Source: Myxococcales bacterium 68-20
Lineage (GTDB): Bacteria > Myxococcota_A > Polyangia > Polyangiales > Polyangiaceae
Assembly (NCBI GenBank): GCA_001899635.1
Contig: MKVQ01000004.1
Location: 124,001 to 188,000 of the forward strand
Direction: 5' to 3'
Length of the DNA stretch: 64,000 bases
Shown: piece after piece, positions 13,231 to 39,356 of the stretch
How positions within the stretch are numbered: the first letter of the stretch is position 1
Layout: each line of letters opens with the position of its first letter
The notes under the pieces: model-generated
What the model saw: the letters and a program-made list of their open reading frames with translations, nothing else
Databases searched by the model: none
What the model was told of the DNA's origin: nothing
Position numbers and translations under genes: made by a program

Positions 13231-14856
13231 GTGCTTCAGACGCGGCTCCTCGCTTGCCTCGCGGTGACGACCGTCACTCTCACGACGCTCATCCACTGCG
13301 GCGGCGACCCTTCGAATGGTTCCGCGCCCCGCGAAGACGCGAGCCCCGATGGGCCGATACGCAAACGCGACGCAGGGCCCGATGCCGAAGGCCCGACGAG
13401 CCTCGGCCCGCCGACCGAGGGTGGAGGCAGCCGATTCAAGCCGATGAACGTCGTGCGGACGTTCGACGACGGCACGAGCGACGTCCAGTTCGCCGATCTG
13501 TTCATGGACACGAAGCTGAGCTCGATGTGCTTCATCGACGCCGTCGGGTCGAGCATGCATCGATGCATGCCCTTCCTGGAGGACGCCTTCGAGGGATTCG
13601 CGGACTCATCGTGCTCGGTGCCGGCGGTCGTCCTGTCGAGCTCACTTTCGGGCGCCACCGGTTTCGCGCGGCTCCCTGACGGCACGAGTTGCGAGCCTCG
13701 CATCGTGACGTTGAGCGGGCTCCGCCAAGGGCCGGCCTATCGACGGAGGTCCGGCACGTGCGAACGATACTCGGAGAACGCCCACTACACGACGCTACGC
13801 ACCGCGATCCCGCTCGACACGTTCGGCGCCTTCACGAGAACGACGGACACCACCGACTTCCCTCGCGAGCGCAGCGGCACGAAGCTCGCTCTCGAACGTT
13901 GGCGTTTCACCGCGGAGGATGGCAGCTTCCAGGTGCGAGCGCCGCGCGTCATCGACGTCTTGCGAGACGCAGAGGGCTCGGTCCAGCTGGCAATGGATCG
14001 TCAGCTCCGCTTCTTTCCATCGTCGTCGAGCCTGTGGCCTGATCTCCAGTTCGCCGACGCGACGTGCACGACGCCGCTGCTCCGGTTCGCGTCGAACGCC
14101 CCGCCGGCGTGTCACGCAGACCCTCGCCGCTCGAACATCGCACTGAAGACCGAGCGCATCGAGGCAGGTTGCAACGGCACACGGGCCGTCCGTGAGCCGA
14201 ACTCCCCTCCTCTCGAGCTCGTCCATCGCATGAAGCAGGGGACATGCAGTGAGGCCGAGCCGACCTACTCCTCGAATCGGCTCCATCCGGCGCAAACACT
14301 CGAGGAGATCGCGCAGGACTCGCTCGTCGCCGTCACCCGAACGCTCGTGACGACGACCAAGCACACGACGGCAGGCTCGAAGCTCGAGGCGCGGTCGGTC
14401 CTCATCTCGAGCGCGGACGGCTTCGAGCTCGAAGAGCGAGCGACGCGCTTCTACTTGCGCAAGTACGACGTGCCCTGCGAAGCCGGCTACCACTCGCACT
14501 CCGGCGACGAGCGATGCGTGCCCGACGTGCCTTGGGAGCAGGCCGGCCAGCTGTTCGCGGATGCCGCCTGCACCGAGCGGCTCCTCACGCTCCCCGACCG
14601 CGCCGGCTGCGAGCCCGTACGTCTCTACCGTGGCTCGAGCTCGAGCGTCGGCGGCAGCGGCATCTTCGAGCGGCCGCCGGGCCCCCCGGTGTCGGCGGAG
14701 ACCATCTACCGCAAGGAGGACGGCGGCGAGTGCCTCCCGGTCGCCGCGAACTACGGCTCGTACGTCCATTTCCCGATGGGCACGCCCGTGGAAATACCGC
14801 TGTCGGAGCTCCCGCGGCTCACGGACCGCTATGTCGTAGTGGCCGACGATCTTTGA
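13231..14856 (+). CDS. Cysteine-containing secreted protein of unknown function
   Basis: The 541-residue product starts at GTG 13231. It has a hydrophobic signal segment ending TLIHCGGD (Cys about 24, a poor but possible lipobox), then an Asp/Pro/Ala linker, then a region with many paired cysteines. Short similar units recur, such as LQFADATCTTPLL and QLFADAACTERLL, suggesting a repeated small beta domain stabilised by disulfides. No enzymatic motif is recognised. The nearest purine-rich stretch (GAGGAGG at 13204) is too far for a normal ribosome site, so the start is uncertain. It stands alone between divergent and same-strand genes. Confidence 0.75.
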   Translation: MLQTRLLACLAVTTVTLTTLIHCGGDPSNGSAPREDASPDGPIRKRDAGPDAEGPTSLGPPTEGGGSRFKPMNVVRTFDDGTSDVQFADLFMDTKLSSMCFIDAVGSSMHRCMPFLEDAFEGFADSSCSVPAVVLSSSLSGATGFARLPDGTSCEPRIVTLSGLRQGPAYRRRSGTCERYSENAHYTTLRTAIPLDTFGAFTRTTDTTDFPRERSGTKLALERWRFTAEDGSFQVRAPRVIDVLRDAEGSVQLAMDRQLRFFPSSSSLWPDLQFADATCTTPLLRFASNAPPACHADPRRSNIALKTERIEAGCNGTRAVREPNSPPLELVHRMKQGTCSEAEPTYSSNRLHPAQTLEEIAQDSLVAVTRTLVTTTKHTTAGSKLEARSVLISSADGFELEERATRFYLRKYDVPCEAGYHSHSGDERCVPDVPWEQAGQLFADAACTERLLTLPDRAGCEPVRLYRGSSSSVGGSGIFERPPGPPVSAETIYRKEDGGECLPVAANYGSYVHFPMGTPVEIPLSELPRLTDRYVVVADDL

Positions 14857-15073
14857 GGCGCTCTCGTTCGATGATCGCGGGCGGCACGAGCGCCAGCAGG
14901 TGGAGCGCTTGCGCCCGCGAATTGAGGTCAGGTCAGCACGGCTTACCGACCGAGCATCACTGAGGCAGGCATCTCCCGCGGATTGTCAGGTACGACATCG
15001 AAGGGTTGTCGGCGCGGCTCCAGGACTCTCCCTTGCCGATGCACCGCCTCGGCGTGGTAGTCGTCGCCCCGCC

Positions 15074-18073
15074 ATGCGGCCGTCGCTCGACCCCCTCCGC
15101 TATTCGCTTCGCGCCCTCGACGAGATGGCGCGCGAGCAGGCGAGCGTCGCGCCTCCGCCGCGGGTCGATGAGCCGCTGTTCTCGCCCCACCCGGTCTTGC
15201 GCCCGATGGCCCGGGACGGCGCGGCGCTGTCGCTTCGGCTCTTCACCGACGCCGACGACGACGCGACCGCGCTCGTCCTCGGCGACGCCTCCTCCCATCG
15301 CTTCGATCCGATCCCTGCCCGCGCGGCGACGCTGTTCGACGCCCACGCCGCGCTCATCGCCCGAAACGGTGAGGACGACATGGTCCTCGGCTTCCCGCTG
15401 GTGACCTTCGTCCAGCAGGGCAGCACACGCGTCGCACCGCTCATCTCCCGCGGAGGCGTGCGCGCGCGATGGATGCTCGGACAGCGGGGCTGGGAGCTTC
15501 CACGAGACGCGTCCGCCGGCGTGCCGTTCTCGCCACCCGATGCGCTCGAGATCGAGGTCGCCGGAGACGAAAACACGTACGCGCTGCACGGCGGCGTGTG
15601 GCACTTCCTCTTCGGGTTCGATGGCGCGACCCTCGCGCGGATCGGGGCCACAGGGCGTCGAGGGACCTCCGCGCTCGTGCGCGCCGCGACACGCGCGCTC
15701 GAGAGCGGCGCCGAGGACGTCGAGCCGGACACGACGATCGAGAGCGGACCGCTCACCAAAGACGAGCTGCAGGCGTTCTGCGAAGCGGCGGCGACGCGCG
15801 CCGCGCCGAGCCGCGCCCTCCGGTGCCATCCGCACGGGCTCCTGATGTTGCCGCCGCGTGGCGATCCGACGAGCGGCCTCCGAACCGAGCTCCGCGCATT
15901 GCTCGACGAGCGGGCGCCCGAACGAGGCCCGCTCGCGGTCTACCTCGGCGCCTCGGCCGCCCCAGCCGATGAGCAATCCGTCTGGACGAGCGGGAAGGTC
16001 CCACCGACGCCGTCGCAGCTCACTGCCGCGCGCGCGTTCGAGGGAACGCAGGATCTCGTCGCCGTGCGTGGTCCGCCGGGCTGCGGGAAGACTGCGCTGC
16101 TCCATCACGTGACCGCGCAGACCGTCGTCGCGTGCGCGCTCGGCGACGTCTGGGTGAAGGCACCGTCGCGGATCGCGCCATGGCCGCTCGTGGTGACGAG
16201 CACCAACAACGCCGCCGTCGACCACGCGCTCTCGCCGTTCGTGAACGCGCCGGCAATCCCGGTGGCGCTCCGGCTCGGCAACCGGCGCACGCTCGCCGAA
16301 GAGACCGCCACCGCCCTCGCCTTTGCGATCGACGCCTTGCAGGCACCGGGCGAGGCGACGCTCGTCGAGGCGCGCGAAGCCTTCGAGGCACTGGCGCGGC
16401 CGGTACGCGCGCACCTTCGCGATCGAGCCGCCACTCGCAAGGCGCGTGAATCGCGCTCGGCTCGCCGACGGCAGCTCGAGCAGCGTGCAGCTACGCTCAG
16501 GCAGACGCTCGCGGAGACGCTCGCAGCTCTTCCCGACGGCGACCCGCCGCCCGTGGGGCTCTCCGATCTCGACGAGGCGATGCAGGCCCTCCGCGAGCAC
16601 TTGGAAGCGGCGTCGCGCCTCGCGCCGCTCCACCTCGATGGCAAGAAGCCGTCGGTCGAGCGCGCGTGCGAGAAGTGGGCACGAGCCAATGCGCTCCGCG
16701 CCCCGCGGGTCGAGCCTGTGCTTCGGAGCCTGTCGCTCGAGACACCGTTCGGCGCGCTCGACGCCGCACGACCACGCGAGGACGTGACGCGCCAGCAGAG
16801 CGCGATGGGGGCGACGCTCGCGCAGCTGGAACGCGTGCGTGCCCTCCTCGCCGCTCCCGAGCTGCGTCGCGAGCTCGCCAGCGTCGAGTCCGAGCTCGCG
16901 GTCGCTCCGTCCGAAGCGTCTGGGTTTTCGCCGGACCCCGCGCTCTACGATGCCGCGCTCGTCGTGCGCGACGCCTGGGCCCGCGCACACCGCACCACGC
17001 TCGTTCCGCGCCTCTCTGCGGCGCTGGCCGCGGTGCGCGAGGAGTGGAGCGGCCCACGCAAGCCGCTGTCTCAGCTGCTCTGCGAGCTCGCGCCGCTGTT
17101 CCCGCTTGCAGGATGCACACTTCTGTCCATGCGCGCGTCGTTTCCGCTCGAGCCCGACGTCATCGAGCGGCTCGTGATCGACGAGGCGGCGCAATGCGCC
17201 CCGGTCTACGCCGTCCCGGCCTTGGCGCGGGCGCGACGTGCGTTGCTCGCGGGCGACACGGCGCAGCTCCCGCCGGTCTACACGCTCGATCCACGCGTCG
17301 ACGAGCGACTCGCGCGCGGGCTCCACGAGACCTCCGTCACGCCGTTTCGAATGGGAGCCGACTGCACATCCTCGGCGCAAGCCACGGCGGAGCCGCGCGC
17401 GCGGACACGCCTCGCGCTCGTCGAGCACTTCCGCTCGCAGCGCGAGATCGTCGCGCTCTCCTCGCGCTGGAGCGGCTACGACCTGGACGTGCGCACGACC
17501 TCCCGCTCGCTGCGAGCGATCTCTCCGCGCCTCGTATCGCCGGTGACGGTCCTCCCGGTGCGAGGGCACGGCGGACGCGCCCCCGAGGGGGTCGTCAACG
17601 AGGCCGAGGCCATCCACACCGTCGACCTCGTGGCCGAGCTCCTCGCGGACGGCATCGAACCGGCGGACATCGCCGTCCTCACGCCGTTCGTGGGCCAGTG
17701 CGTCCGTGTCGAACGGGAGCTGCTCGCGCGCGGCCTCCTCCAGCGCGGAGGCGTGCTCGTGAGCACGGTGCACAGGCTGCAGGGCGGCGAACGGCGCGTC
17801 ATCGTCTTCTCGGTGGCCGCGACCCAGCGGCGGCACCTGCGCTGGCTCGCCGAACGGCCGCATCTTCTCCACGTCGCGACGAGCCGTGCCCAGGATCATC
17901 TCGTGGTGCTGCTCGATCCGGAGGCGCTCGCCGATGAGCCCGCGCTCGCGCCGTTCCGTGAGCATCTTCGGAGCACGCCCGCGGGAACCGCGTCGCTCCA
18001 TCACGAGCTCGAAGCTATCGACGCGTCGACGATGGGCAGTTCCCCTGTGCGTGCGCCACGATGGCCTCGATGA
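15074..18073 (+). CDS. Superfamily 1 (Upf1/AAA_11-AAA_12-like) helicase with novel N-terminus
   Basis: The predicted cytoplasmic ATPase has 999 residues. The helicase core carries Walker A GPPGCGKT (about 333-340), Walker B DEAAQC (about 703-708), motif III GDTAQLPPV, motif IV region EHFRSQREIV, motif V STVHRLQGGERR and motif VI HVATSRAQDH. A charged insert of about 350 residues, rich in Arg/Glu/Ala and probably helical, separates Walker A from Walker B, as in Upf1/Dna2-like helicases. The first roughly 320 residues match no family I recognise. No nuclease motif follows the core. ATG 15074 is preferred over upstream in-frame starts, which would only add a low-complexity Arg-rich leader. Its last 59 bases overlap the convergent LysR gene. 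Confidence 0.85.
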   Translation: MRPSLDPLRYSLRALDEMAREQASVAPPPRVDEPLFSPHPVLRPMARDGAALSLRLFTDADDDATALVLGDASSHRFDPIPARAATLFDAHAALIARNGEDDMVLGFPLVTFVQQGSTRVAPLISRGGVRARWMLGQRGWELPRDASAGVPFSPPDALEIEVAGDENTYALHGGVWHFLFGFDGATLARIGATGRRGTSALVRAATRALESGAEDVEPDTTIESGPLTKDELQAFCEAAATRAAPSRALRCHPHGLLMLPPRGDPTSGLRTELRALLDERAPERGPLAVYLGASAAPADEQSVWTSGKVPPTPSQLTAARAFEGTQDLVAVRGPPGCGKTALLHHVTAQTVVACALGDVWVKAPSRIAPWPLVVTSTNNAAVDHALSPFVNAPAIPVALRLGNRRTLAEETATALAFAIDALQAPGEATLVEAREAFEALARPVRAHLRDRAATRKARESRSARRRQLEQRAATLRQTLAETLAALPDGDPPPVGLSDLDEAMQALREHLEAASRLAPLHLDGKKPSVERACEKWARANALRAPRVEPVLRSLSLETPFGALDAARPREDVTRQQSAMGATLAQLERVRALLAAPELRRELASVESELAVAPSEASGFSPDPALYDAALVVRDAWARAHRTTLVPRLSAALAAVREEWSGPRKPLSQLLCELAPLFPLAGCTLLSMRASFPLEPDVIERLVIDEAAQCAPVYAVPALARARRALLAGDTAQLPPVYTLDPRVDERLARGLHETSVTPFRMGADCTSSAQATAEPRARTRLALVEHFRSQREIVALSSRWSGYDLDVRTTSRSLRAISPRLVSPVTVLPVRGHGGRAPEGVVNEAEAIHTVDLVAELLADGIEPADIAVLTPFVGQCVRVERELLARGLLQRGGVLVSTVHRLQGGERRVIVFSVAATQRRHLRWLAERPHLLHVATSRAQDHLVVLLDPEALADEPALAPFREHLRSTPAGTASLHHELEAIDASTMGSSPVRAPRWPR

Positions 18074-29783: not shown

Positions 29784-30854
29784 ATGAACGTGAGCCGTGG
29801 CGATGCATGCGCTCGGGGACGGCGCTCCGCCGTACGGGCGGGCAGCTTCCTCACGTTCATGGCTCTCGGTCTCGTCGCGCGCTCGTCCAGCGCTGCCGAC
29901 GGGGTCGATTCGAACGTCGAGCTCGAGTACGTCGTTGCCGGCGGCATCCCCGATTGCTTGTCGCGGTCCGACTTCGAGGACGCCGTGCGGGCTCGTCTGG
30001 CGGGCACCACGTGGGCTCCGCACGAAGCCATCGTCGTCTCGACCCGCATCGAGCCCGAAGACGAGCGGCTCCGTGCGACCATAGTCCTGCGCGAACGTGG
30101 CGAGGGCGGGCGGTGGACCGAGGCGAAGCAAGAGCTCTTCGCCGCTCCGCACGAGTGCGCCACGCTGAGTGCCACCGCTGCGCTCGCCGCCAGTCTGACG
30201 ATCCGGCGTTCACTCGCACACGCGAAGTCGACCCAGCTCGAGCCGTCCGAGCTCCGGCCCCCCACGCCACCACCCGGGCCATCATCCGCGAGCAAACGAC
30301 GGGAGTCTCCGGCAGCTCCCCCGCCGGCACGCCCGGCAATGGCACACGAGCGAAAGAAGCGGCCGGAGATTCGAACGCATCTCGTCGTCGTCGGTGGCTA
30401 CGACATCCAGCCCAGCGCGTCGGTCGGGAGCGCGTTCGGCGCCTCCGTGAAATTCCAGCCGTGGTCGGCGGGGCTCGAAGCCGGCGCGTGGCTCCCTGCA
30501 GTCCTCACGACTGCCTCCGGACGAGGAGGAGGCAAGGCGTGGCTCGTCTTCTCCAGCGCCTCAGCTTGCGTTCATCCCGGCCCCCTGTTTGTCTGTGGCG
30601 TCGGCACGATCGGCAGGCTCCGTGCCTTCGGAATGGGACAACTGCACAGCCGCTCCGGTGCCTCCACGTACGTCGCGATGGGCGTTCGTGTCGGGGCCGA
30701 GATCGTCGTCGCATCCCCGTTCTCCCTCGTCGTTCATGGAACCGCTCTCTCTCCGCTTCTCCGGCCGTCGCTGCGGATCGGTGACGAGCTGCTCTGGCGA
30801 GCGCCGCTCGTGGGAGCCGAGGTGGGAATCGGCGTCCGCGTATCGATTCTTTGA
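29784..30854 (+). CDS. Exported protein with probable C-terminal beta-barrel
   Basis: The 356-residue product has an N-terminal signal peptide (FLTFMALGLVARSSSAADG). A soluble alpha/beta domain follows (about 40-150; EYVVAGGIPDCLSRSDFEDAV, cited by position). After a Pro/Ser/Arg linker, a C-terminal half of alternating hydrophobic strands rich in Gly and aromatics resembles an outer-membrane barrel. No family is recognised. It lies 32 bases before the ECF sigma factor gene, implying co-transcription. Start ATG 29784 is preferred; ATG 29751 is possible. Confidence 0.6.
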   Translation: MNVSRGDACARGRRSAVRAGSFLTFMALGLVARSSSAADGVDSNVELEYVVAGGIPDCLSRSDFEDAVRARLAGTTWAPHEAIVVSTRIEPEDERLRATIVLRERGEGGRWTEAKQELFAAPHECATLSATAALAASLTIRRSLAHAKSTQLEPSELRPPTPPPGPSSASKRRESPAAPPPARPAMAHERKKRPEIRTHLVVVGGYDIQPSASVGSAFGASVKFQPWSAGLEAGAWLPAVLTTASGRGGGKAWLVFSSASACVHPGPLFVCGVGTIGRLRAFGMGQLHSRSGASTYVAMGVRVGAEIVVASPFSLVVHGTALSPLLRPSLRIGDELLWRAPLVGAEVGIGVRVSIL

Positions 30855-30886
30855 CGGTTGGTCGATCGAGCTCCCAATAGGGGGGC

Positions 30887-31450
30887 ATGACGATGGCCTC
30901 ACGGCTGGCCATGACGACGGCTGAGGTGACGAGCGAGCCGAAACGCTCGGACTTCGAGGCCATTTTCCAGGCCAACTTCCGCTTCGTCTGCGCCTCGCTC
31001 CAGCGTCTCGGAGTTCGCGAGCGCGACGTCGAGGACGTAGCTCAGGAGCTCTTCGTCGTCGTCCACCGCAAGCTCGACAGCTACGACGACCAGCGACCGG
31101 TACATCTCTGGCTGTTCGGTTTCTGCCTTCGCGCCGCGTCCGACTACCGCCGTCTGGCTCGAAATCGTCGGCTCGTTCACACGGACGTCGAGCCGGCACA
31201 TCCCGATCTCCTCGCCGACGACAAGATCGCCGCAGAGCAGAACCGTCGCCTCCTTCTCGCCGCGCTCGACGAGCTCGACTCCGACCGTCGCGAGGTCTTC
31301 GTCATGCACGATCTGAACGAATTTTCCTCCCCGCAGATCGCAGAGATGCTCTCCATCCCCGTCAACACCGTCTACTCCCGGCTCCGCATGGCTCGCGAGG
31401 AGCTCAAGCGAGCCGTCACCCGCCTTCGCGCGTCGCGAGGTTCGAAATGA
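30887..31450 (+). CDS. ECF-type RNA polymerase sigma factor
   Basis: The 187-residue sigma-70-family factor has region 2 (FEAIFQANFRFVCASLQRLG through RDVEDVAQELFVVVHRKL, about 22-70) and region 4 (LDELDSDRREVFVMHDLNEFSSPQIAEML, about 125-175, with a helix-turn-helix NTVYSRLRMAREELKRA). Regions 1 and 3 are absent, so it is an ECF factor. A G-rich ribosome site precedes ATG 30887. The stop overlaps the start of the next gene by 4 bases (ATGA), the usual sign of a sigma/anti-sigma pair. Confidence 0.92.
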   Translation: MTMASRLAMTTAEVTSEPKRSDFEAIFQANFRFVCASLQRLGVRERDVEDVAQELFVVVHRKLDSYDDQRPVHLWLFGFCLRAASDYRRLARNRRLVHTDVEPAHPDLLADDKIAAEQNRRLLLAALDELDSDRREVFVMHDLNEFSSPQIAEMLSIPVNTVYSRLRMAREELKRAVTRLRASRGSK

Positions 31451-32304
31451 CCGAGCGAGTCGATATGGGCGACGCGCTCGAAGCCCTCGATCCCGAGCTG
31501 CGCACGCTCGTCGAGGACACGCGCTCGTGTGACGCCGACGATGCTGCGTTCGGGGACGGCACGAGCCGGCGAGTCCTCGATCAGGTTCGTCGATCCGTCG
31601 GATCGGGCGGAGCTCACGAAGCGCTCGCTGTCTCGAAGGCAAGCCGCCTCCGGCTCGGAGTGGTGCTCGCCTCGACCTGTGTCGTCGTTGCGTTCGCTGG
31701 CTCGAGGCTCGTCCTCGACGAGGGAAAGACCGTCTCGGCATCGAGCGCGTCCCAGCCGGAGAGCGTCGCTCGGCAGGCTCCTTCCGCATCGCTGGAGACA
31801 TCCGAGGACACGTCGGCGAAGCCATCTCCGACGACGGATCCGGCGAGCGACGGCGTCCCGACGATGCACATCGACGAGCTTCCGCCGTCTGCCGCGGCGG
31901 CGCCCGCGTCTGCCGCGCTTCCGCCGTCTGCCGCGGCGGCGCCCGCATCTGCACCGCCGCCGGCGCCACTTGTCGGCCGGCCGGCTCCTCCGAGCAAGGT
32001 CCCGCCCGCGGGGACCGATCTGGCCGAGGAGTATCGACTGATCGAAGAGGGGCGTGCCGGTCTCGCCACTGGGGACTACGCGAAGGCGCTCCGATCGCTC
32101 GGAGAGCACGAACGGCGCTTTCCCAACGGACAGCTCAATCAAGAGCGCGAGAGCTTGCACATCGAGGTGCTCGTCTCCACCGGCCGCATCGCAGAGGCGC
32201 GCGAACGCGCACGGACCTTCCAGGAGCGCTTCCCGAGCGGCCTGCTGATGCCGTCCGTCGCGCGTGTGATCGCGGGCTCGTCGCCGCCTCCTCCGACGCC
32301 CTGA
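31447..32304 (+). CDS. Single-pass membrane protein with TPR-like C-terminus, probable sigma partner
   Basis: The 285-residue product has a cytoplasmic N-terminus (about 1-65), one membrane helix (about 70-90), a Ser/Pro/Ala-rich spacer containing a duplicated 13-residue unit, and a periplasmic helical region (about 190-270; EEYRLIEEGRAGLATGDYAKAL) resembling tetratricopeptide repeats. Overlap with the ECF sigma gene suggests it binds or controls that sigma factor. No zinc-finger anti-sigma motif (HxxxCxxC) is seen, so it is not a classical ZAS anti-sigma. The stop codon lies inside an 8-base tandem repeat. Confidence 0.7.
   Translation: MTERVDMGDALEALDPELRTLVEDTRSCDADDAAFGDGTSRRVLDQVRRSVGSGGAHEALAVSKASRLRLGVVLASTCVVVAFAGSRLVLDEGKTVSASSASQPESVARQAPSASLETSEDTSAKPSPTTDPASDGVPTMHIDELPPSAAAAPASAALPPSAAAAPASAPPPAPLVGRPAPPSKVPPAGTDLAEEYRLIEEGRAGLATGDYAKALRSLGEHERRFPNGQLNQERESLHIEVLVSTGRIAEARERARTFQERFPSGLLMPSVARVIAGSSPPPPTP
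31879..31956 (+). repeat. 39-base tandem duplication inside the coding spacer
   Basis: Two 39-base units, 31879-31917 and 31918-31956, each encode LPPSAAAAPASA plus one residue. They differ at only a few bases, so the duplication is recent. It lies in the flexible spacer and keeps the frame. Confidence 0.85.
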
Positions 32305-32326
32305 CGCCCTGACGCCCTGACGCCCT
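32295..32326 (+). repeat. Four tandem 8-base units over a stop codon
   Basis: The unit GACGCCCT occurs four times without interruption. The stop of the preceding gene (TGA, 32302-32304) spans the junction of units one and two. Copy-number change would not alter that protein, because the frame enters the array at a fixed phase. Confidence 0.9.
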
Positions 32327-32371
32327 TCCGCGTCGTCCAGCTCACGCTTCATCAACACCGTTCTCACGCCG

Positions 32372-33604
32372 GTGCCCATGTCTGCCATCAGGTACAGCCC
32401 ACTCATCGTACTGACCGTGCTTGCGGCATCTGCCGTCGTCCTGGGCAGCGGTTGCGCGGAGACGTCGATCGATCTCGGCGAATACGTCGACGCCAACGCA
32501 CCGCCGCCGAGCTTCACGGACCTCGACGCCGGAGCCGACGGCGACGCCTCCACGACGAGCCCCCAGGCCCCCCAGAACCTCTGCATCGCAACGGAGTGTC
32601 CAGAGGGGTTCGCAACCTGTGCGGCGGAGAACGGGCCCGCATACAAGTGTGGGACCGATCTCTTGCACGATCCGAAGAACTGCGGCGCGTGCGGGCACGA
32701 ATGCCTCGTCTACGAGCCACTGCACATGTCGTCACGCTGCATCGAGGGCGTGTGCGAGCTCGAGTGCATGAACTCCTCGAGCATCACGGAGGATCGGAGG
32801 AACTGCAACGGCGTGGTCGACGACGGCTGCGAGGTCGACGTCCTCAGCGATCGACGAAACTGTGGCGCTTGCGGCAAAGCGTGTCCCGCCGACCAGCCCT
32901 GTCTCAACGGCAAGTGCGGGTGCCCTGCAGGGAAGATCCTGTGCGGTGACAAGTGCATCGATCCGAAGACCAACGACGAGAACTGCGGCGCGTGCGGGAA
33001 CGCGTGTGAGCAGCCGGCCGATTCGTGCGAGCAGATGCCTGCTCACGTCTACTACGGATGCATGGGTGGCACGTGCGGTCACCTGAAGTGCGGTGGCACG
33101 TCGGCCGACTGCAACAACGACGTCGCGACCGATCTCTGCGCGTCCGACGGCTGCGAGGTCGAGGACATCCGCACCGACCCCAACAACTGCGGTGGTTGCG
33201 GGATCAAGTGCAAGGACGGAGAGGAGTGCATCGACGAGGGCTTCGGCGTCGAATGCGCGGTGCGGTGCTCGCGATTCGGCAAAGTGTATTGCCCGGACAT
33301 CCCCGCCTTGGACCAGTGCGTCGACTTCCTGACGGACCCGGACAACTGCGGTGGTTGCGGGAGGGTCTGTCCGAAGGCGGGCGCGAACGAGATCCGTGCC
33401 TGCAAGAAAGGCCTCTGCGCAAACGAGTGCGTCACCGGATTCGCCGACTGCAACGCCGACACGTCCGACGGCTGCGAGACGAACTTGATGGCTCATCCCG
33501 CAAACTGCGGCGCGTGCGGCAACCGTTGTGACATCGGCGCAGGTCAACCTTGCGTCGAGGGCGAGTGCCTCATGACGACCTGCAAAGACCAGGAGACGCA
33601 CTGA
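32372..33604 (+). CDS. Cys-rich lipoprotein with Stig1-like NCGxCG repeats
   Basis: The 410-residue surface lipoprotein has a lipobox at VLGSGCAET (Cys about 28) and an Asp/Ala-rich linker. Six cysteine-rich units follow, each built around NCGACG or NCGGCG and a following Cys, often preceded by D(G/D)C-V/E. The pattern resembles Stig1-type repeats found in many myxobacterial surface proteins. The cysteines are probably disulfide-bonded outside the cell. It is the first gene of a five-lipoprotein run; its stop shares a base with the next start (TGATG). Confidence 0.82.
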   Translation: MPMSAIRYSPLIVLTVLAASAVVLGSGCAETSIDLGEYVDANAPPPSFTDLDAGADGDASTTSPQAPQNLCIATECPEGFATCAAENGPAYKCGTDLLHDPKNCGACGHECLVYEPLHMSSRCIEGVCELECMNSSSITEDRRNCNGVVDDGCEVDVLSDRRNCGACGKACPADQPCLNGKCGCPAGKILCGDKCIDPKTNDENCGACGNACEQPADSCEQMPAHVYYGCMGGTCGHLKCGGTSADCNNDVATDLCASDGCEVEDIRTDPNNCGGCGIKCKDGEECIDEGFGVECAVRCSRFGKVYCPDIPALDQCVDFLTDPDNCGGCGRVCPKAGANEIRACKKGLCANECVTGFADCNADTSDGCETNLMAHPANCGACGNRCDIGAGQPCVEGECLMTTCKDQETH

Positions 33605-34827
33605 TGAGTCTTCGGATGGGACGAACCTCTATCCTCGCCATGCCCCTGCTCGCGGCAGCGATGGTGCCGTCGTTCGCGAGCTGTGCGCAGACCGAAGGTG
33701 CCGAGGCCGACGGCGGTGACGGGCGTGTCGTCGTGCCGGCCGAGGCCGGCGTCGACGGGGGCGACCTCGACGCATCGAGCGACGGCGGCGATTGTGAAAC
33801 ATCGGCGAACGACTGTGTCTCTCAGAGCATCACGTGTGACGAGGCGCCGTGGTGCCCGATCCCGACAGGCGTGAGCACGCGCTACGCGCTCACGGCCGTG
33901 TGGGGCAGCAGCAAGAACGACATCTGGGCGGTCGGCTCGGGCGGAACGATCATCCACTTCGACGGCGCTGCGTGGACGACGACTCCGACGGATCTTCGAC
34001 ACACGTTCAACGACGTCTGGGGATCGGGGCCGAACGACGTCTGGGCCGTCGCGATGACGGATACGATCCTCCACACGACCGGCTTCGCCAGCGGCACCGC
34101 GACCTGGACGCGCGTTCCGGCGCCGCGCGATCCGCGCAACGCCCTTCCCGTGCACGCGGTCTGGGGTACGGGGCCCGATGCGGTCCGGCTCGGCGTTCGC
34201 GCGTACTCGTTCTACGACCCGAACACGGGCGAGTTCCCGTTCATCGATCAGTACACGCTGAAGGTCGAGGACGACGGCGGCATCGGGTGGGATCCCGTCG
34301 AAGGAGAGGGATCCGTCCTCGGCTTCTGGGGCTCGTCGACGGACCTGTGGGTCGTCGCGGACAACAGCGAGAAGAACAGCTGGCAAAAGGGCATGACGAA
34401 GCAGGGCACGCCCGGCAAGGGCGGCGTCTTCGAGTGGAAGGTCGTCGATAGCCAGTCGACGGTCGTGCTCGAGGGGATCTGGGGAAGCTCCGCGAACGAC
34501 ATCTGGGCGGTGGGCCAGAAGGGCACCATCCGGCGGATGAGCAACGGCGCGGCTCGGTGGGAGGTCATCGACGCGCCGACCCAGGAATCGCTGCACGGGA
34601 TCTGGGGCAGCGGCCCCAACGACGTCTGGGCCGTCGGCGACTCCGGCACGATCCTTCACTGGGACGGGACCGCCTGGAGCCCATCGCTCGCCGCATTCGC
34701 TCTCGGGAAGAAGCCGAACCTCTACGGGATCTGGGGTAGCGCTCCGAACGACGTCTGGATCGTCGGCGATGGCGTCTCGCTCCACTACACCGGGCCGAAG
34801 TCCGGAGGACAAGGAGGTGGCCAGTGA
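33604..34827 (+). CDS. Lipoprotein with beta-propeller repeats, first of two
   Basis: The 407-residue product has a lipobox (PSFASCAQ, Cys about 24), a Gly/Asp linker, and several copies of a blade-like motif (VWGSSKNDIWAVG, VWGSGPNDVWAVA, IWGSSANDIWAVG, IWGSGPNDVWAVG, IWGSAPNDVWIVG). The spacing of about 45-60 residues suggests a beta-propeller. Such proteins usually act as binding scaffolds. The start is set by the overlap with the preceding gene, and the end overlaps the next gene (GTGA). Confidence 0.82.
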   Translation: MSLRMGRTSILAMPLLAAAMVPSFASCAQTEGAEADGGDGRVVVPAEAGVDGGDLDASSDGGDCETSANDCVSQSITCDEAPWCPIPTGVSTRYALTAVWGSSKNDIWAVGSGGTIIHFDGAAWTTTPTDLRHTFNDVWGSGPNDVWAVAMTDTILHTTGFASGTATWTRVPAPRDPRNALPVHAVWGTGPDAVRLGVRAYSFYDPNTGEFPFIDQYTLKVEDDGGIGWDPVEGEGSVLGFWGSSTDLWVVADNSEKNSWQKGMTKQGTPGKGGVFEWKVVDSQSTVVLEGIWGSSANDIWAVGQKGTIRRMSNGAARWEVIDAPTQESLHGIWGSGPNDVWAVGDSGTILHWDGTAWSPSLAAFALGKKPNLYGIWGSAPNDVWIVGDGVSLHYTGPKSGGQGGGQ

Positions 34828-36032
34828 GCCGCTTCGTAGCCGCTACTGCGCTCGGCTCTCTCGTGCTCGTGGCGCTCTCGGCATGCGCCGACACCGATGC
34901 CAGCCCCGGTCAGGTCGACACGCCGAACGACGAAGGCGGGATCGTGCCCTCGTCCGATGCCGGTTCGCTCGAGGACGCGGGCGACGTTGACGCCGACGCC
35001 GACGCCGACACCGACGCTGGTCCACGCGAGTGCTCGAAGGAGGGGTTCTGTCACACCGTCCTTCCATTCAACCAGACGCTGCGAGCCGTTTGGTCCGATG
35101 GAGCCGGCACGACGTGGGCGACCAGCGAGCAAGGGTCCGTGCTTCGATACGATGGGAAGACGTGGAGCGTTCACGCGAAGCTGAGCACCGCGCTCTGGTC
35201 CATCTGGGGAAGCAGCCCGACGGACATCTGGGTCGGAGGCGACGCCGGGCTCTTTCATGGCGTGGGCAACACGTCGGCGACGCTCGCGTTCGCGCAGGTG
35301 GCGCTCCCCGATGTCGACACGCCGATCACGTCGATCTGGGGAACCAGCGCGACGGACGTATGGGCGACGGGATCCTATCTGTACGCCTCCGGCCGCGTCG
35401 TCCACCACACGGGCGGAGTCGGTCGCGACGACGGACCGGAGTTCGTCCTCGAAAGCGTCTCCGCCAAGCCCATCTCCTACACGCGTGTCTTCGGCTCGCA
35501 GGCGACTGGGGTATGGATCGCCGGTTCCTGGGTCGACAAGCCCGGCCGCCGCGCCATTCTCCTCCGTCGAAGCCCGGGGACGAGCGACTTCGTCGAGGTA
35601 TCGCTCCCGACGAACCCCAACCCCGGCGGCCCCCTGGAAGGGGCGCTCGACCGACTCTACGACGCGAGCCTCAGCGCAGACGGTCTATCGGTCTACGTGC
35701 TCGGACGCGCCGAGGGCGCGGTGCCCGCGGTCGCCACGGGGACGAGCGCCGACGGTGGGCAGACCTTCACCTGGGGATTCACCATCACCGGCAACTACAA
35801 GGAGCCGCTCCTCAACGCGGTCGGCGCGAAGTCCGCGAGCGACGCGTGGATCGCCGGCGACTACGGGCGGCTCCGCCACTGGAACGGTACCGAGTGGAGG
35901 CAGTCCATCATCACGAACGACAAGTATCCGGTGATCGCTCCGCTCTACGCGATGGGTGGCCGGGGAGACGATCTCTGGTTCGTGGGCGACGGCATCGCGC
36001 TGCACAGGGCCCCTTCGAAGGTCGAGCCGTGA
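34824..36032 (+). CDS. Lipoprotein with beta-propeller repeats, second of two
   Basis: The 402-residue paralogue of the preceding protein starts at GTG 34824 with a strong ribosome site (AGGAGGTGG at about 34807). It has a lipobox (VALSACADT, Cys about 21), an Asp/Ala-rich linker with a DADADAD tract, and diverged blade motifs (IWGSSPTDIWVGG, IWGTSATDVWATG, VGAKSASDAWIAG). The repeats are fewer and weaker than in the first paralogue. The GTGA overlap with the upstream gene implies translational coupling. Confidence 0.8.
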   Translation: MSRFVAATALGSLVLVALSACADTDASPGQVDTPNDEGGIVPSSDAGSLEDAGDVDADADADTDAGPRECSKEGFCHTVLPFNQTLRAVWSDGAGTTWATSEQGSVLRYDGKTWSVHAKLSTALWSIWGSSPTDIWVGGDAGLFHGVGNTSATLAFAQVALPDVDTPITSIWGTSATDVWATGSYLYASGRVVHHTGGVGRDDGPEFVLESVSAKPISYTRVFGSQATGVWIAGSWVDKPGRRAILLRRSPGTSDFVEVSLPTNPNPGGPLEGALDRLYDASLSADGLSVYVLGRAEGAVPAVATGTSADGGQTFTWGFTITGNYKEPLLNAVGAKSASDAWIAGDYGRLRHWNGTEWRQSIITNDKYPVIAPLYAMGGRGDDLWFVGDGIALHRAPSKVEP

Positions 36033-36039
36033 GGAACGC

Positions 36040-37485
36040 ATGAGAGCTCAGATCCGCAAACTCATCTTCGTGACGACTTCGTTCTCCGCGACCGCGGCCG
36101 CCGTCGCATGCAGTGACGACGCACCCGCGGTTCGACCGGGGTTCGGGCTCGACGCATCTCCGGACGTCGTGGTCAGTCTTCCGGAAGCGGCCGCTCCGGA
36201 GGATGGCGGCTCGGACGCGGACTCCGGCACGCAGCGCGATCCGTTCGATCCCGCCGACGAGCCCGTGAGCTGCGCGGGCGCCGGGCCGTGCGCGACTCGG
36301 ATCGTCGCGGGTAGCAACCACTTCTGCGCGTTGATGAGCGACGGGACCGCTCGATGCTGGGGCAGCGACGAGTACGGTGCTCTCGGCGGTGTCGATCCCG
36401 CCGAAGGCGTCGGGCCCGTCGTCGTCGATGGCCTCCACGGAGCGACGCAGCTCAGCGCTGCGCGCTCGACGACGTGCGCCCGGATGGGAGACGGGACCGT
36501 GATGTGCTGGGGCTCGAACAGCTTCGGTCAGCTCGGTCTCGACGACCAGCAGCCTCGGTCGGATGAACGCGAACATCGCACGCCGTCGCAGGTCGCTCTT
36601 CGTGCCGCGGCGGTGCGTGTCGACGTCGGGCCAAGGAACGTCTGCGCCGTCCTCACGACCGGCAAGGTCTCATGTTGGGGCACGAACGAGCAGTTGCAGC
36701 TCGCGCGCACGGATCCGGACTTCAGCTGGGTCGTCGGGCCGGGCATCGCGGAGCTCGATCCGCTCCTCGTGAAGAAGACGAGCATCGGAACCACGACGGT
36801 CTTCGCCCTGACGAACGACGGCGAAGTCTTCAGCTGGGGCGCCGTCTCGGGTAAGGACGGCTTCATCAGCGGGCGCAGGTCGTCCATCAGCCCCGACGTG
36901 GTCCCGAACCGGGTCGGGCAGTTGAAGAGCGTGACGAGTCTCGTGGTGGGCCCGACGCTCGCCAAGGACGAAGCAGGGCCGCTGGAGCAGGGCCTGGCCC
37001 CGTCCTTCGCCCCTCCCTGCGGATGGGGCGGTTGCCCGCCGGTGAACATGCACGGCCACGCCTGCGCGATCTCCGAGGGCGAGGTCTATTGCTGGGGACG
37101 GAGCGACATCGGTGCACTATGCACGGGCCTCCCGGACGAGGAACGCCTGCCTGCGCCCGTGCCCGTGAAGAGCAAGGCGTGGCCGCAGCAGCTCGCCATC
37201 GGCGACGAGATCACCTGCGCACGCATGACGGATGGGAGCATCCAATGCTGCGGTGCCGATGCGCTCGGCAGACTGGGCCCGGATCAGACGAGCATCTACT
37301 CGGCGCTCCTCAAGCCCATCGTCTCCTTCAAGAGCCACGCCGTACAGGTCGCAACGAGCTACCGCGCCGTCTGCGCCCTCGTGAAGGACGGGACGGTCGA
37401 GTGTTGGGGAAGCAACCAGTTCGGTGAGCTCGGCATGAGCCCGGACGAGGACCGGCATGCGACGCCGGTCAAGATCGCATTCTAG
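36040..37485 (+). CDS. RCC1-repeat lipoprotein
   Basis: The 481-residue product has a lipobox (AAAVACSDD, Cys about 24) and RCC1-type repeats recognised by CWGSDEYGALG, CWGSNSFGQLG, CWGTNEQLQL, SWGAVSG, CWGRSDIGALC and CWGSNQFGELG, with paired cysteines in most units. RCC1 repeats form a seven-bladed propeller; in bacteria they are mostly extracellular binding modules. A ribosome site (GAGGAA) overlaps the stop of the preceding gene 7 bases upstream and fixes ATG 36040. Confidence 0.87.
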   Translation: MRAQIRKLIFVTTSFSATAAAVACSDDAPAVRPGFGLDASPDVVVSLPEAAAPEDGGSDADSGTQRDPFDPADEPVSCAGAGPCATRIVAGSNHFCALMSDGTARCWGSDEYGALGGVDPAEGVGPVVVDGLHGATQLSAARSTTCARMGDGTVMCWGSNSFGQLGLDDQQPRSDEREHRTPSQVALRAAAVRVDVGPRNVCAVLTTGKVSCWGTNEQLQLARTDPDFSWVVGPGIAELDPLLVKKTSIGTTTVFALTNDGEVFSWGAVSGKDGFISGRRSSISPDVVPNRVGQLKSVTSLVVGPTLAKDEAGPLEQGLAPSFAPPCGWGGCPPVNMHGHACAISEGEVYCWGRSDIGALCTGLPDEERLPAPVPVKSKAWPQQLAIGDEITCARMTDGSIQCCGADALGRLGPDQTSIYSALLKPIVSFKSHAVQVATSYRAVCALVKDGTVECWGSNQFGELGMSPDEDRHATPVKIAF

Positions 37486-37538
37486 AGCACCGCCCATTCG
37501 GGGTGCAGCTCGCGTTTCGGGTGAACGAAAGGTCGACG

Positions 37539-39356
37539 ATGGTGTCCGAAGGTCGCGTGATTCGCTTTGCCTCTCTCCTGTTCGGTACGAGTGTCATGGC
37601 CGTGTGCTTCGCCGCGTGCAGCGACGATCGCGATGGCTTCACCGACAGGAAGGACATCTTCGAGGTCCCGGACGCCGAGGCGTCGGCGCCCGAGCCGCCT
37701 TCGTGCGGATTCCGCTGCTCGCGGGATCTCAAGACGGTCCTCAAAGGTTGCGACGGCGCCGAAGAGGTGGTGGCGAGCTGCCCGCCCGATCAGGGATGCG
37801 GCATCGACAGGTGCGTCGACGCTTGCGAGAGCGCTGCGCTCTCGAAGGGCTCGATCGGTTGCTCCTTCTGGACGCTTCCGCCCGACGACGGCGACGACGG
37901 CGCCGGAGCGTGTTTCGCGGCGATGATCGCGAATACGTGGGACCGCCCCGTGAACATCACCGCGGAATGGGGCGCCGATCCGCTCGATGTGAGCGAGGCG
38001 ATCTACACGGCCTCCGTCGTCGGCGAGAACGCCACGTACACGCCGTTGACCGGCCCCTTGCCTCCCGGACAGGTCGCGATCGTCTTCCTCGCGCAGGCCA
38101 CGATCGTCTCCGACGCCGACGCGGTCAGGTGTCCCGAAGGCACCAAGGCTGCGGTGAAGATCGATCCGATCCGCCACGGGACGACGAAGACGAAGGCGTT
38201 CCACCTCAAGACCGACGCGCCCGTCTCCGCGTACTCGAGCTTCCCGTACGGTGGCGCGGAGAGCTTCTATCCAGCCGCGACGCTGCTCTTGCCGGTCTCG
38301 TCCTGGGACACGAGCTACATCGCAGTGTCGACGGGCAAGTACGGTGACGCGCAACAGTCCGAGGCCGATCAGCGGACGGTGCAGATCATCGCCAACGAGG
38401 ACGACACGTCGGTCTCGATGCGCCCGAACGTCGACGTCGCCGAAGGCAACGACGTCGCGCCCGCAGGCGCAAACGAGGTCCAGACGTGGACGCTCTCGCG
38501 CGGGCAGGTGCTGCAAATCACGCAGCGTGGCGGCATCACCGGCAGCGCGATCAAGTCGAGCAAGCCGGTGGGCATGTTCGGCGGCGCACCCTGCAACTTT
38601 CTGCCGTCGACCGTTCCTTGGTGCGATATCACCCAGCAGCAGATCCCGCCGTTCTCCCAGTGGGGAAGCGAGTACGCTCTCGTGCCCTACCTGCCGCGGA
38701 TCGAGGCCGTCACCGGCACCGCGCGCGAGACCGTTCCGTGGATGTTCGTCGGTGCGGTCGACGGGACCGAGCTGACCTACGAGCCGAAGAAGCCCGCTGG
38801 GGCGCCCACGAAGCTCTCGGCCGGGCAGGCGGTCCACTTCATGACCGATCAGCTCGTCACCGTGAAGAGCCAGGACTCGAAGCATCCGTTCTACGTCGCG
38901 GTCCATATGACGGGCGCCACGTTCGGTGGCGGCACGCCGGGCGGAGGATCGACGAAGGGTGATCCCGACTTCGTCAACGTCGTTCCGTCGGACCAGTTCC
39001 TCGATCGGTACGTGTTCTTCGCCGACTACACGTATCCGGACACCAGCCTCACCGTCGTGCGCCGGAAGGCAAAGGACGGCTTCAAGCCGGTCGTGCTCGA
39101 GTGTGGCGGCGAGATCACCGGCTTCGCGCCGCTTGGATCGAGCGGAGAGTACGAGTTCGCCTGGGTGAAGCTGACGAGCGGATGGGGACCCCAGAAGCTC
39201 GCGAACGGAGAGTGCGGCTACGGCCGGCACGAAGCACGAAGCGAAGCCCCGTTCTCGATCACGGTCTGGGGCATCGGTCAGGACGCCAGCTACGGCTTTG
39301 CCGGCGGCATGGGAAGCCGTCCGATCAACGACGCGCCCGCTCCGCCGGTCAACTGA
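37539..39356 (+). CDS. IgGFc-binding-domain-like secreted lipoprotein
   Basis: The 605-residue product has a lipobox (VCFAACSDD, Cys about 28), a cysteine-rich N-terminal region (about 50-120), and a long domain resembling the IgGFc_binding family. Typical features are PVSSWDTSYIAVSTGKYG, FGGAPCNFLP, and the closing DASYGFAGG strand. In bacteria the family is found on secreted surface proteins; the ligand is unknown. ATG 37539 is chosen over an ATG at 37503 because GAAAGG lies 6 bases before it. It ends the five-gene lipoprotein run and is followed by a hairpin. Confidence 0.8.
   Translation: MVSEGRVIRFASLLFGTSVMAVCFAACSDDRDGFTDRKDIFEVPDAEASAPEPPSCGFRCSRDLKTVLKGCDGAEEVVASCPPDQGCGIDRCVDACESAALSKGSIGCSFWTLPPDDGDDGAGACFAAMIANTWDRPVNITAEWGADPLDVSEAIYTASVVGENATYTPLTGPLPPGQVAIVFLAQATIVSDADAVRCPEGTKAAVKIDPIRHGTTKTKAFHLKTDAPVSAYSSFPYGGAESFYPAATLLLPVSSWDTSYIAVSTGKYGDAQQSEADQRTVQIIANEDDTSVSMRPNVDVAEGNDVAPAGANEVQTWTLSRGQVLQITQRGGITGSAIKSSKPVGMFGGAPCNFLPSTVPWCDITQQQIPPFSQWGSEYALVPYLPRIEAVTGTARETVPWMFVGAVDGTELTYEPKKPAGAPTKLSAGQAVHFMTDQLVTVKSQDSKHPFYVAVHMTGATFGGGTPGGGSTKGDPDFVNVVPSDQFLDRYVFFADYTYPDTSLTVVRRKAKDGFKPVVLECGGEITGFAPLGSSGEYEFAWVKLTSGWGPQKLANGECGYGRHEARSEAPFSITVWGIGQDASYGFAGGMGSRPINDAPAPPVN

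Follow-up and report, generated by a model that had tools for sequence, protein, structure and literature searches.

A family of sigma factor-headed surface lipoprotein cassettes with separately inherited bodies in Myxococcales bacterium 68-20

The locus and its eight genes

The stretch of DNA analysed here (the window, 64,000 nucleotides, G000:C4:124001-188000) belongs to the genome of Myxococcales bacterium 68-20, an assembly of 11.9 Mb on 52 contigs that is 98.4% complete and 4.2% contaminated (G000, the own genome). Between positions 29784 and 39356 of the window, eight genes follow one another on the + strand: a predicted exported barrel protein (BARREL), an extracytoplasmic function (ECF) sigma factor, its membrane partner with a TPR domain, and five lipoproteins. 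A first-pass annotation had claimed this run of eight genes, which is confirmed, and its impression of one operon-like unit of sigma factor, membrane partner and lipoproteins with the look of an envelope system is borne out. It had also read the run as a single undescribed envelope system; this single-locus reading was replaced after searches of the own genome showed a large family of cassettes, in which the eight genes form two separately inherited modules, a regulatory head of three genes and a surface body of five. The features are as follows.

29784-30854, + strand: BARREL, head gene 1 (AlphaFold2 (AF2) and Foldseek; family alignment)
30887-31450, + strand: ECF sigma factor, head gene 2 (PF08281, 2.5e-16; PF04542, 1.9e-6; CnrH in the PDB, 2.2e-13)
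31447-32304, + strand: TPR partner, head gene 3 (AF2, Foldseek; 4-base overlap with the sigma gene)
32372-33604, + strand: STIG1/MXAN_6577-like Cys-rich lipoprotein, body gene 1 (PF04885, 1.1e-11; NF041328, 1.9e-29)
32489-32632, + strand: head/body junction zone in the STIG1 gene, an Asp/Ala/Pro linker and the first Cys block (position transferred from breakpoints mapped in other copies)
33604-34827, + strand: P1, propeller-like lipoprotein, body gene 2 (lipobox and WG-S-NDxWAVG repeats in the translation)
34824-36032, + strand: P2, propeller-like lipoprotein, body gene 3 (lipobox and WG-S-NDxWAVG repeats in the translation)
36040-37485, + strand: RCC1-repeat lipoprotein, body gene 4 (PF25390, 1.5e-52; PF13540, 2.8e-43)
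37503-39356 (start perhaps 37539), + strand: IgGFc_binding lipoprotein, body gene 5 (PF17517, 6.6e-101)

The distances between successive genes (gap +, overlap -) are +32, -4, +67, -1, -4, +7, and +17. The sigma factor falls into the ECF class (sigma-70 group 4), with PF04542 and PF08281 above cut-off and no sigma3 match. PF17517 is matched at 337.9 bits (gathering score 25.6) over model positions 1-297 of 297, and the STIG1 protein reaches 102.4 bits against the 100 bits of NF041328 (MXAN_6577-like), with its best stretch at 71-221. P1, P2, BARREL, and the TPR partner gave no Pfam match above cut-off; therefore, the label 'propeller' rests on the visible WG-S-NDxWAVG repeats. All five cargo proteins had been called lipoproteins, which holds for the four that match the lipobox pattern, while the STIG1 protein has only a near-lipobox (SGC). 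By Pfam and NCBIfam, in which the propellers and BARREL have no family match, no toxin, immunity, or mobility gene was found among the eight window genes, and no enzyme domain was recognised in the five body lipoproteins.

The head closest to that of the window cassette is in the cassette at C12:187434. Its closest body is one in the congener G125, and within the own genome mostly that at C4:273995. In a search of named genomes with the ECF protein (80 loci, L051-L130, from which the own records may have been excluded), the best matches were 37-38% identical and mostly from distant groups.

The cassette family and its two modules

The best 150 of 212 ECF candidates and the best 150 of 184 STIG1 candidates in the own genome were scored. 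Among the first 30 ECF loci listed, a relative of the TPR partner lies within 1.5 kb in 28 and a STIG1 relative in 27. A STIG1 gene is found 0.6-2.6 kb downstream on the same strand for 127 of the 150 listed ECF matches and an IgGFc gene 4.5-10.5 kb downstream for 119 (5-95% range 6.7-7.3 kb); both are downstream on the same strand for 118, and therefore the gene run is not a matter of chance. Another cassette follows in tandem for 13 of the 118. The STIG1 protein search gave at least 161 matching pieces, and PF17517 has 141 matches in the own genome, 139 of them without an internal stop.

Of 129 IgGFc places with an upstream STIG1 gene that were fetched and annotated, 127 gave a body with both genes; ten foreign cassettes were counted alongside these. 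The 127 bodies (STIG1, propeller, propeller, RCC1, IgGFc) are spread over 35 contigs, and 120 have a same-strand ECF gene, 116 a TPR gene, 101 a recognised BARREL, and 95 all eight genes. The counts that require all genes miss cassettes cut by contig ends, and the BARREL count is probably too low since the profile misses divergent members. Together, the cassettes amount to 1,149,360 bp, or 9.7% of the own genome, a share well beyond anything sampled elsewhere in the phylum. They are mostly not recent copies: taken gene by gene, the nearest neighbour has a median identity of 0.47-0.71, and no value lies above 0.90. The ratio of nonsynonymous to synonymous divergence (dN/dS) is 0.12-0.62 in ten pairs; therefore, the proteins of these pairs are under purifying selection. 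Start codons permit an overlap, or a gap no longer than 30 bases, between the TPR and STIG1 genes in 63% of 114 copies and between STIG1 and P1 in 122 of 122, and an overlap of the TPR gene with the sigma gene in 89% of 113; all of these are upper bounds for overlap, since the start codon chosen was always the one closest to a 4-base overlap. In four cassettes (two own, one in G145, and one in G144) the head is inverted beside the body.

Heads and bodies have different histories. Among the own cassettes, the rank correlation of pairwise identity is 0.34-0.43 within the head and 0.68-0.80 within the body, and -0.04 to 0.09 between them; nearest neighbours agree at 0.39-0.47, 0.48-0.61, and 0.02-0.08, respectively. 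Trees were compared for the 95 of the 127 own cassettes that have all eight genes. Out of 56 strong splits in the head tree, one was shared with the body tree and 55 were contradicted. The controls within modules shared 35 of 43 strong splits (BARREL against ECF plus TPR) and 42 of 48 (P2 against RCC1 plus IgGFc), with two contradicted in each. A further test within the body shared 44 of 55 (8 contradicted) and, in the reverse direction, 43 of 61 (12 contradicted). In pairs whose bodies are 0.75-0.84 identical, the heads stand at background identity.

The modules are shuffled at one joint in the first lipoprotein gene, just past its signal peptide. Along the cassette, identity tracks the head through the whole TPR gene; from roughly column 37 of the STIG1 alignment it tracks the body, more weakly in some later windows. 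Identity in STIG1 columns 1-30 is 0.57-0.68 when both modules match (9 pairs), 0.43-0.45 when only the head matches (32 pairs), 0.21-0.25 when only the body matches (58 pairs), and 0.21-0.23 where the pair is unrelated; in columns 41-60 the pattern is inverted, with 0.30 for head-only vs 0.54 for body-only matches. Across the family, the STIG1 signal peptide is inherited with the head and the mature part with the body, and the signal peptides of the other four lipoproteins remain with the body.

The same joint is seen in the DNA. Of 16 chosen pairs with shared bodies and unrelated heads, 14 gave a DNA match and two, both with C16_90708m, gave nothing. The shared DNA begins 89-175 nucleotides (nt) into the aligned STIG1 gene in all 14 and ends -25 to +86 nt from the IgGFc stop codon in 13, all of them copies other than the window cassette. 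Among 11 head-sharing pairs, five matches stop at +48 to +218 nt of the STIG1 gene, one stops at -123, one pair gave no match, and four matches extend further because the bodies of these pairs are also alike. The cassette G145_C370_8463m, from a congener, matches C6_130623m up to +106 nt of STIG1 and C16_404405m from +130 nt onwards, ending 4 nt short of the IgGFc stop; by these local alignments, its joint therefore lies within about 25 bases. A recombination site at the joint was also considered: the enriched DNA words differ by gene and fit coding motifs, and therefore no such site is claimed.

It is the bodies that have moved recently. For 22 of 127 cassettes the nearest own body (P1, P2, RCC1, IgGFc) lies at a synonymous divergence (dS) below 0.5, and for 11 at one below 0.35, where the 22 are cassettes rather than independent events, with mutual nearest pairs counted twice. 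All 22 have heads unrelated to those of their body relatives (identity 0.23-0.32), and the nearest head lies at dS below 0.5 for only 2 of 120 cassettes, one mutual pair; therefore, the bodies are the exchanged cargo. Tandem neighbours (13 pairs) have bodies that are alike (median 0.548 vs 0.313, p = 2.9e-5) and heads that are not (0.280 vs 0.267, p = 0.21). From such comparisons, bodies appear to have been copied into place behind resident heads.

Out of 20 congener cassettes with both modules, eight are linked, with head and body nearest to the same own cassette, and 12 are not. In four linked pairs from two species the DNA match begins at about -2.6 to -2.8 kb, around where BARREL starts, and extends through the whole IgGFc gene. 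Between species, the bodies of linked cassettes show dS of 0.34-0.78, and therefore part of the body copying seems to postdate the species. Two bodies fall below this range for whole-cassette inheritance, at dS 0.17 and 0.21 between species, which suggests that they moved horizontally. Clear swaps are G145_C370_8463m, with body dS 0.17 and head dS 0.88, and G145_C290_37490p, with body dS 0.42 and head dS 0.37 to different nearest cassettes. G125_C24_80547p is a less clear case, as the cassette with its nearest head also has a similar body, and most of the remaining unlinked cassettes are without a close relative on one side.

Six IgGFc fragments are listed in addition, three of which sit 1-3 kb downstream of an intact IgGFc gene (G000:C48:255555-255994, G000:C16:89397-89552, and G145:C290:29235-29570). 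These three could be the remains of replaced bodies, and their number is too small for a conclusion.

Members of the genus differ sharply in copy number. First-look PF17517 candidates, which count IgGFc genes and not cassettes, number 144 in the own genome and 48, 17, 10, 9, 4, 4, 3, 2, 2, 1, and 0 in the other 11 of 12 genomes of the genus; among 377 sampled genomes of the phylum, 213 of them with PF17517 matches, no other listed genome has more than 27. UvrB identity, taken as a baseline, is 91-92% in G125 and G145 and 86-87% in G144, G147, and G141, with no full-length match in G148. The expectation that the gene order would recur in relatives holds for the own copies and for G125, G145, and G144, to which a cassette cut by a contig end in G147 can be added; 17 of 18 sampled IgGFc regions from other genera in the order (L165-L180, L299) are without a cassette, and some sampled IgGFc genes of G125, G144, G147, G141, and G055 stand alone as well. 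The eighteenth region (L300, G041:C195, a 7.7-kb contig from another family) carries parts of two cassettes in tandem, which share 50-71% identity with cassettes of the genus and may stem from transfer or from bin contamination. No empty cassette site could be demonstrated, as the neighbouring gene P0008 was matched in only 2 of 11 congeners. In the fragmented congener G141, STIG1 matches near cassette quality at contig ends (C339:326-1420, C466:6-779, and C201:7-291) are probably cut cassettes.

The head as a proposed switch

BARREL is predicted to be exported and to consist of a periplasmic alpha/beta domain with two conserved Cys, a Pro-rich linker, and a C-terminal 8-stranded outer-membrane barrel (AF2 mean pLDDT 79; best Foldseek matches NspA, 2.2e-6, and OmpA, 6.6e-5). 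The TPR partner is predicted to have three short N-terminal helices, one transmembrane helix (67-86), a disordered Pro/Ala linker, and a periplasmic TPR domain (192-277); its mean pLDDT is 69, and above 90 in the TPR part. Its best Foldseek matches include the TPR of YbgF (E 0.02, probability 1.00) and BamD (E 0.085). The predicted topology and the operon position would fit the layout of an anti-sigma factor with a single transmembrane helix. On these models, the TPR partner is proposed to be the anti-sigma factor and BARREL the surface sensor. TolB is also among the Foldseek matches of BARREL, probably via the N-terminal domain, and the TPR of the partner resembles YbgF, a protein of the Tol system; the two proteins may interact.

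The arrangement is reminiscent of FecA-FecR-FecI cell-surface signalling, in which, according to an excerpt of PMC9249621, an outer-membrane barrel, a sigma regulator with a single transmembrane helix, and an ECF sigma factor are encoded together. Likewise, the head pairs a predicted outer-membrane barrel having a periplasmic domain with an ECF sigma factor and a putative single-helix regulator, which is predicted to have a short helical cytoplasmic N-terminus and a periplasmic C-terminal part. Unlike FecA, BARREL is predicted to be an 8-stranded OmpA-like barrel with an N-terminal alpha/beta domain and not a TonB-dependent receptor; the TPR partner has no FecR domain match, its periplasmic part being TPR; and the cargo comprises lipoproteins rather than iron uptake, in more than 100 copies. 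By analogy, the head would work like the FecA-FecR-FecI family, of which it is not a member by domain tests. A switch of that kind is what we infer for it.

A promoter motif shared by BARREL, ECF, and STIG1 had been anticipated, and none common to the copies was found; one word is enriched before the ECF gene, in a minority of copies. This putative sigma-dependent promoter word, TTTCGTGATC, is present upstream of the sigma gene in 16 of 140 copies with at most one mismatch (1.1 expected), an excess that is partly built in because the motif was derived from the very sequences in which it is counted. The promoters may differ from head to head. A universal motif was rejected as a candidate, and the signal upstream of STIG1 resembled, in part, TPR coding sequence.

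Alternative readings and known systems

The locus is best explained as one of about 127 self-contained surface cassettes, each headed by a proposed sensor and a sigma factor and carrying an exchangeable body of five lipoproteins, to which we assign a probability of roughly 0.6. In the proposed mechanism, BARREL would perceive a surface cue, and its periplasmic domain would act on the periplasmic TPR domain of the partner, which would then free the sigma factor to transcribe its own operon, lipoproteins included. Body exchange would proceed by recombination between cassettes, most likely by ectopic gene conversion; one crossover would lie in the 5' portion of STIG1, and the second would fall close to the IgGFc end or exactly at it. 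Any sensor could thus be brought to govern any set of lipoproteins, which would make the repertoire combinatorial. Such a repertoire probably serves recognition or adhesion on contact, directed at kin, prey, or surfaces, as suggested by the scaffold types, by its size, and by the lack of recognised enzyme domains. A more far-reaching version is tentative: about 120 private sensor/sigma heads and a pool of five-lipoprotein bodies, moving from head to head by recombination in the signal-peptide linker of the first lipoprotein, may form a combinatorial surface-receptor repertoire, in which lineages rewire the path from cue to complex and acquire recognition at the level of the individual, a multi-locus analogue of expression-site switching.

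Several results weigh against this model. Seven of the 127 bodies are without a same-strand sigma gene (two of them have a divergent head). The body genes are imperfectly congruent in the further test given above, and therefore some exchange also took place inside bodies. In one of the 14 body-sharing pairs the shared DNA runs at least 616 nt beyond the IgGFc stop, no DNA site common to the joints was detected, and the fetched stretches around cassettes showed no synteny and no flanking genes common to species. For the switch, none of the fold matches of the TPR partner has an E-value of 0.001 or better, and no anti-sigma domain is recognised in it. Allowing at most one mismatch, TTTCGTGATC precedes STIG1 in 0 of 151 cases (1.5 expected) and BARREL in 1 of 119 (0.7 expected), which is no enrichment, and k-mer and dyad scans gave no promoter motif common to all copies.

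The repertoire could instead be a defence by surface variation, evading phages or predators, and not a recognition device. Cassette recombination in surface lipoproteins is known from other systems similar to vlsE. The exchange of cargo behind many controlled loci resembles such systems, as in Borrelia vlsE, where, in the part of PMC2779866 consulted, the sequence of a surface lipoprotein is exchanged between copies by cassette recombination. In contrast to vlsE, most copies here are complete operons with their own sigma factor, more than 100 of them instead of one expression site with silent copies, and a five-gene block (the first gene from just past its signal peptide) is exchanged between heads. 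To judge from the sequences, antigenic-variation systems with one expression locus and silent donors also differ in that 120 of the 127 bodies here have their own same-strand sigma gene. The recent body copies behind unrelated heads would fit non-reciprocal transfer. Selection in the ten tested pairs is, moreover, purifying and not diversifying; on balance, a defensive role appears rather unlikely.

That the body is a semi-mobile, selfish cargo, which copies itself behind resident sigma heads for expression, with no need of the organism for a repertoire, would agree with recent copying of bodies and hardly of heads, with the two bodies shared between species at dS 0.17 and 0.21 (0.34-0.78 for cassettes inherited whole), and with the shared bodies of the 13 tandem pairs. 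No mobility gene accompanies the eight window genes, however, 120 of 127 bodies keep a same-strand head, and both the dN/dS values and the 139 of 141 PF17517 matches without internal stop argue for function, which makes this view unlikely.

We consider it distinctly unlikely that the heads regulate genes elsewhere, as in a general envelope stress response, with constitutive bodies and an adjacency that is merely historical. The close spacing permitted between TPR and STIG1 and between STIG1 and P1 (upper bounds, as noted), the order kept in 120 of 127 despite shuffling, and the four divergent heads that still abut a body all speak against it, although no promoter motif is enriched at STIG1 or BARREL and heads or part-heads without a body do occur. 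One such locus, L038 (about 13706-17129), has the sigma-TPR pair and BARREL, followed by a 170-aa Cys-rich lipoprotein; another, L047 (14808-16162), has the sigma-TPR pair. Heads may be able to take other cargo. There are at least 150 ECF matches in the own genome with about 120 in cassettes, so the remainder is still sizeable.

Whole-cassette duplication, with the disagreement of heads and bodies as an artefact of fast evolution, misalignment, or misassembly, is highly improbable: the modules are indeed divergent (median pair identity 0.20-0.41) and the genome is given as 4.2% contaminated, but the controls within head and within body are congruent on the same alignments, bodies 0.75-0.84 identical have heads at background, the DNA breakpoints are sharp, and for 8 of 20 cassettes from other assemblies a single own cassette is nearest in both modules.

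Among myxobacteria, outer-membrane exchange and the polymorphic SitA lipoprotein toxins (excerpts of PMC5562445 and PMC8546572) offer a parallel, on the SitA side, in that polymorphic surface lipoproteins are used in recognition by related bacteria. Unlike those systems, no toxin, immunity, or TraA-like gene is recognised among the eight genes, and the protein families differ. Every body gene except the propellers belongs to PF17517 IgGFc_binding, RCC1, or STIG1/MXAN_6577-like NF041328, a membership that gives no function, and the fixed five-gene block was not found described in the literature searched. The first-pass claim that the combination is undescribed has stood: in the full-text literature searched, outside which many subscription papers fall, there was no description of such a cassette or expansion, and no paper pairs IgGFc-binding with Myxococc. 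The single parts are known families; we regard as new the genome-wide repertoire of sigma-headed operons with body exchange at one joint. The head/body split with its single joint provides a concrete case in which the evolution of bacterial regulation, of which regulator controls which genes, can be traced one event at a time. The cassette makes it possible to test what part is played by the IgGFc_binding, STIG1-like, and RCC1 lipoprotein families, found together here, and may be relevant to how social or predatory bacteria distinguish partners and prey.

Two further observations concern the same gene families. Groups of IgGFc genes without an upstream STIG1 gene, and outside the cassette order, lie at G000:C9:49854-54818 (three genes) and C4:487760-490601 (two genes). 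In G033, G043, and G052 of family f6, 249-269 first-look STIG1-type candidates per genome were counted, often in longer open frames, which is possibly another big expansion.

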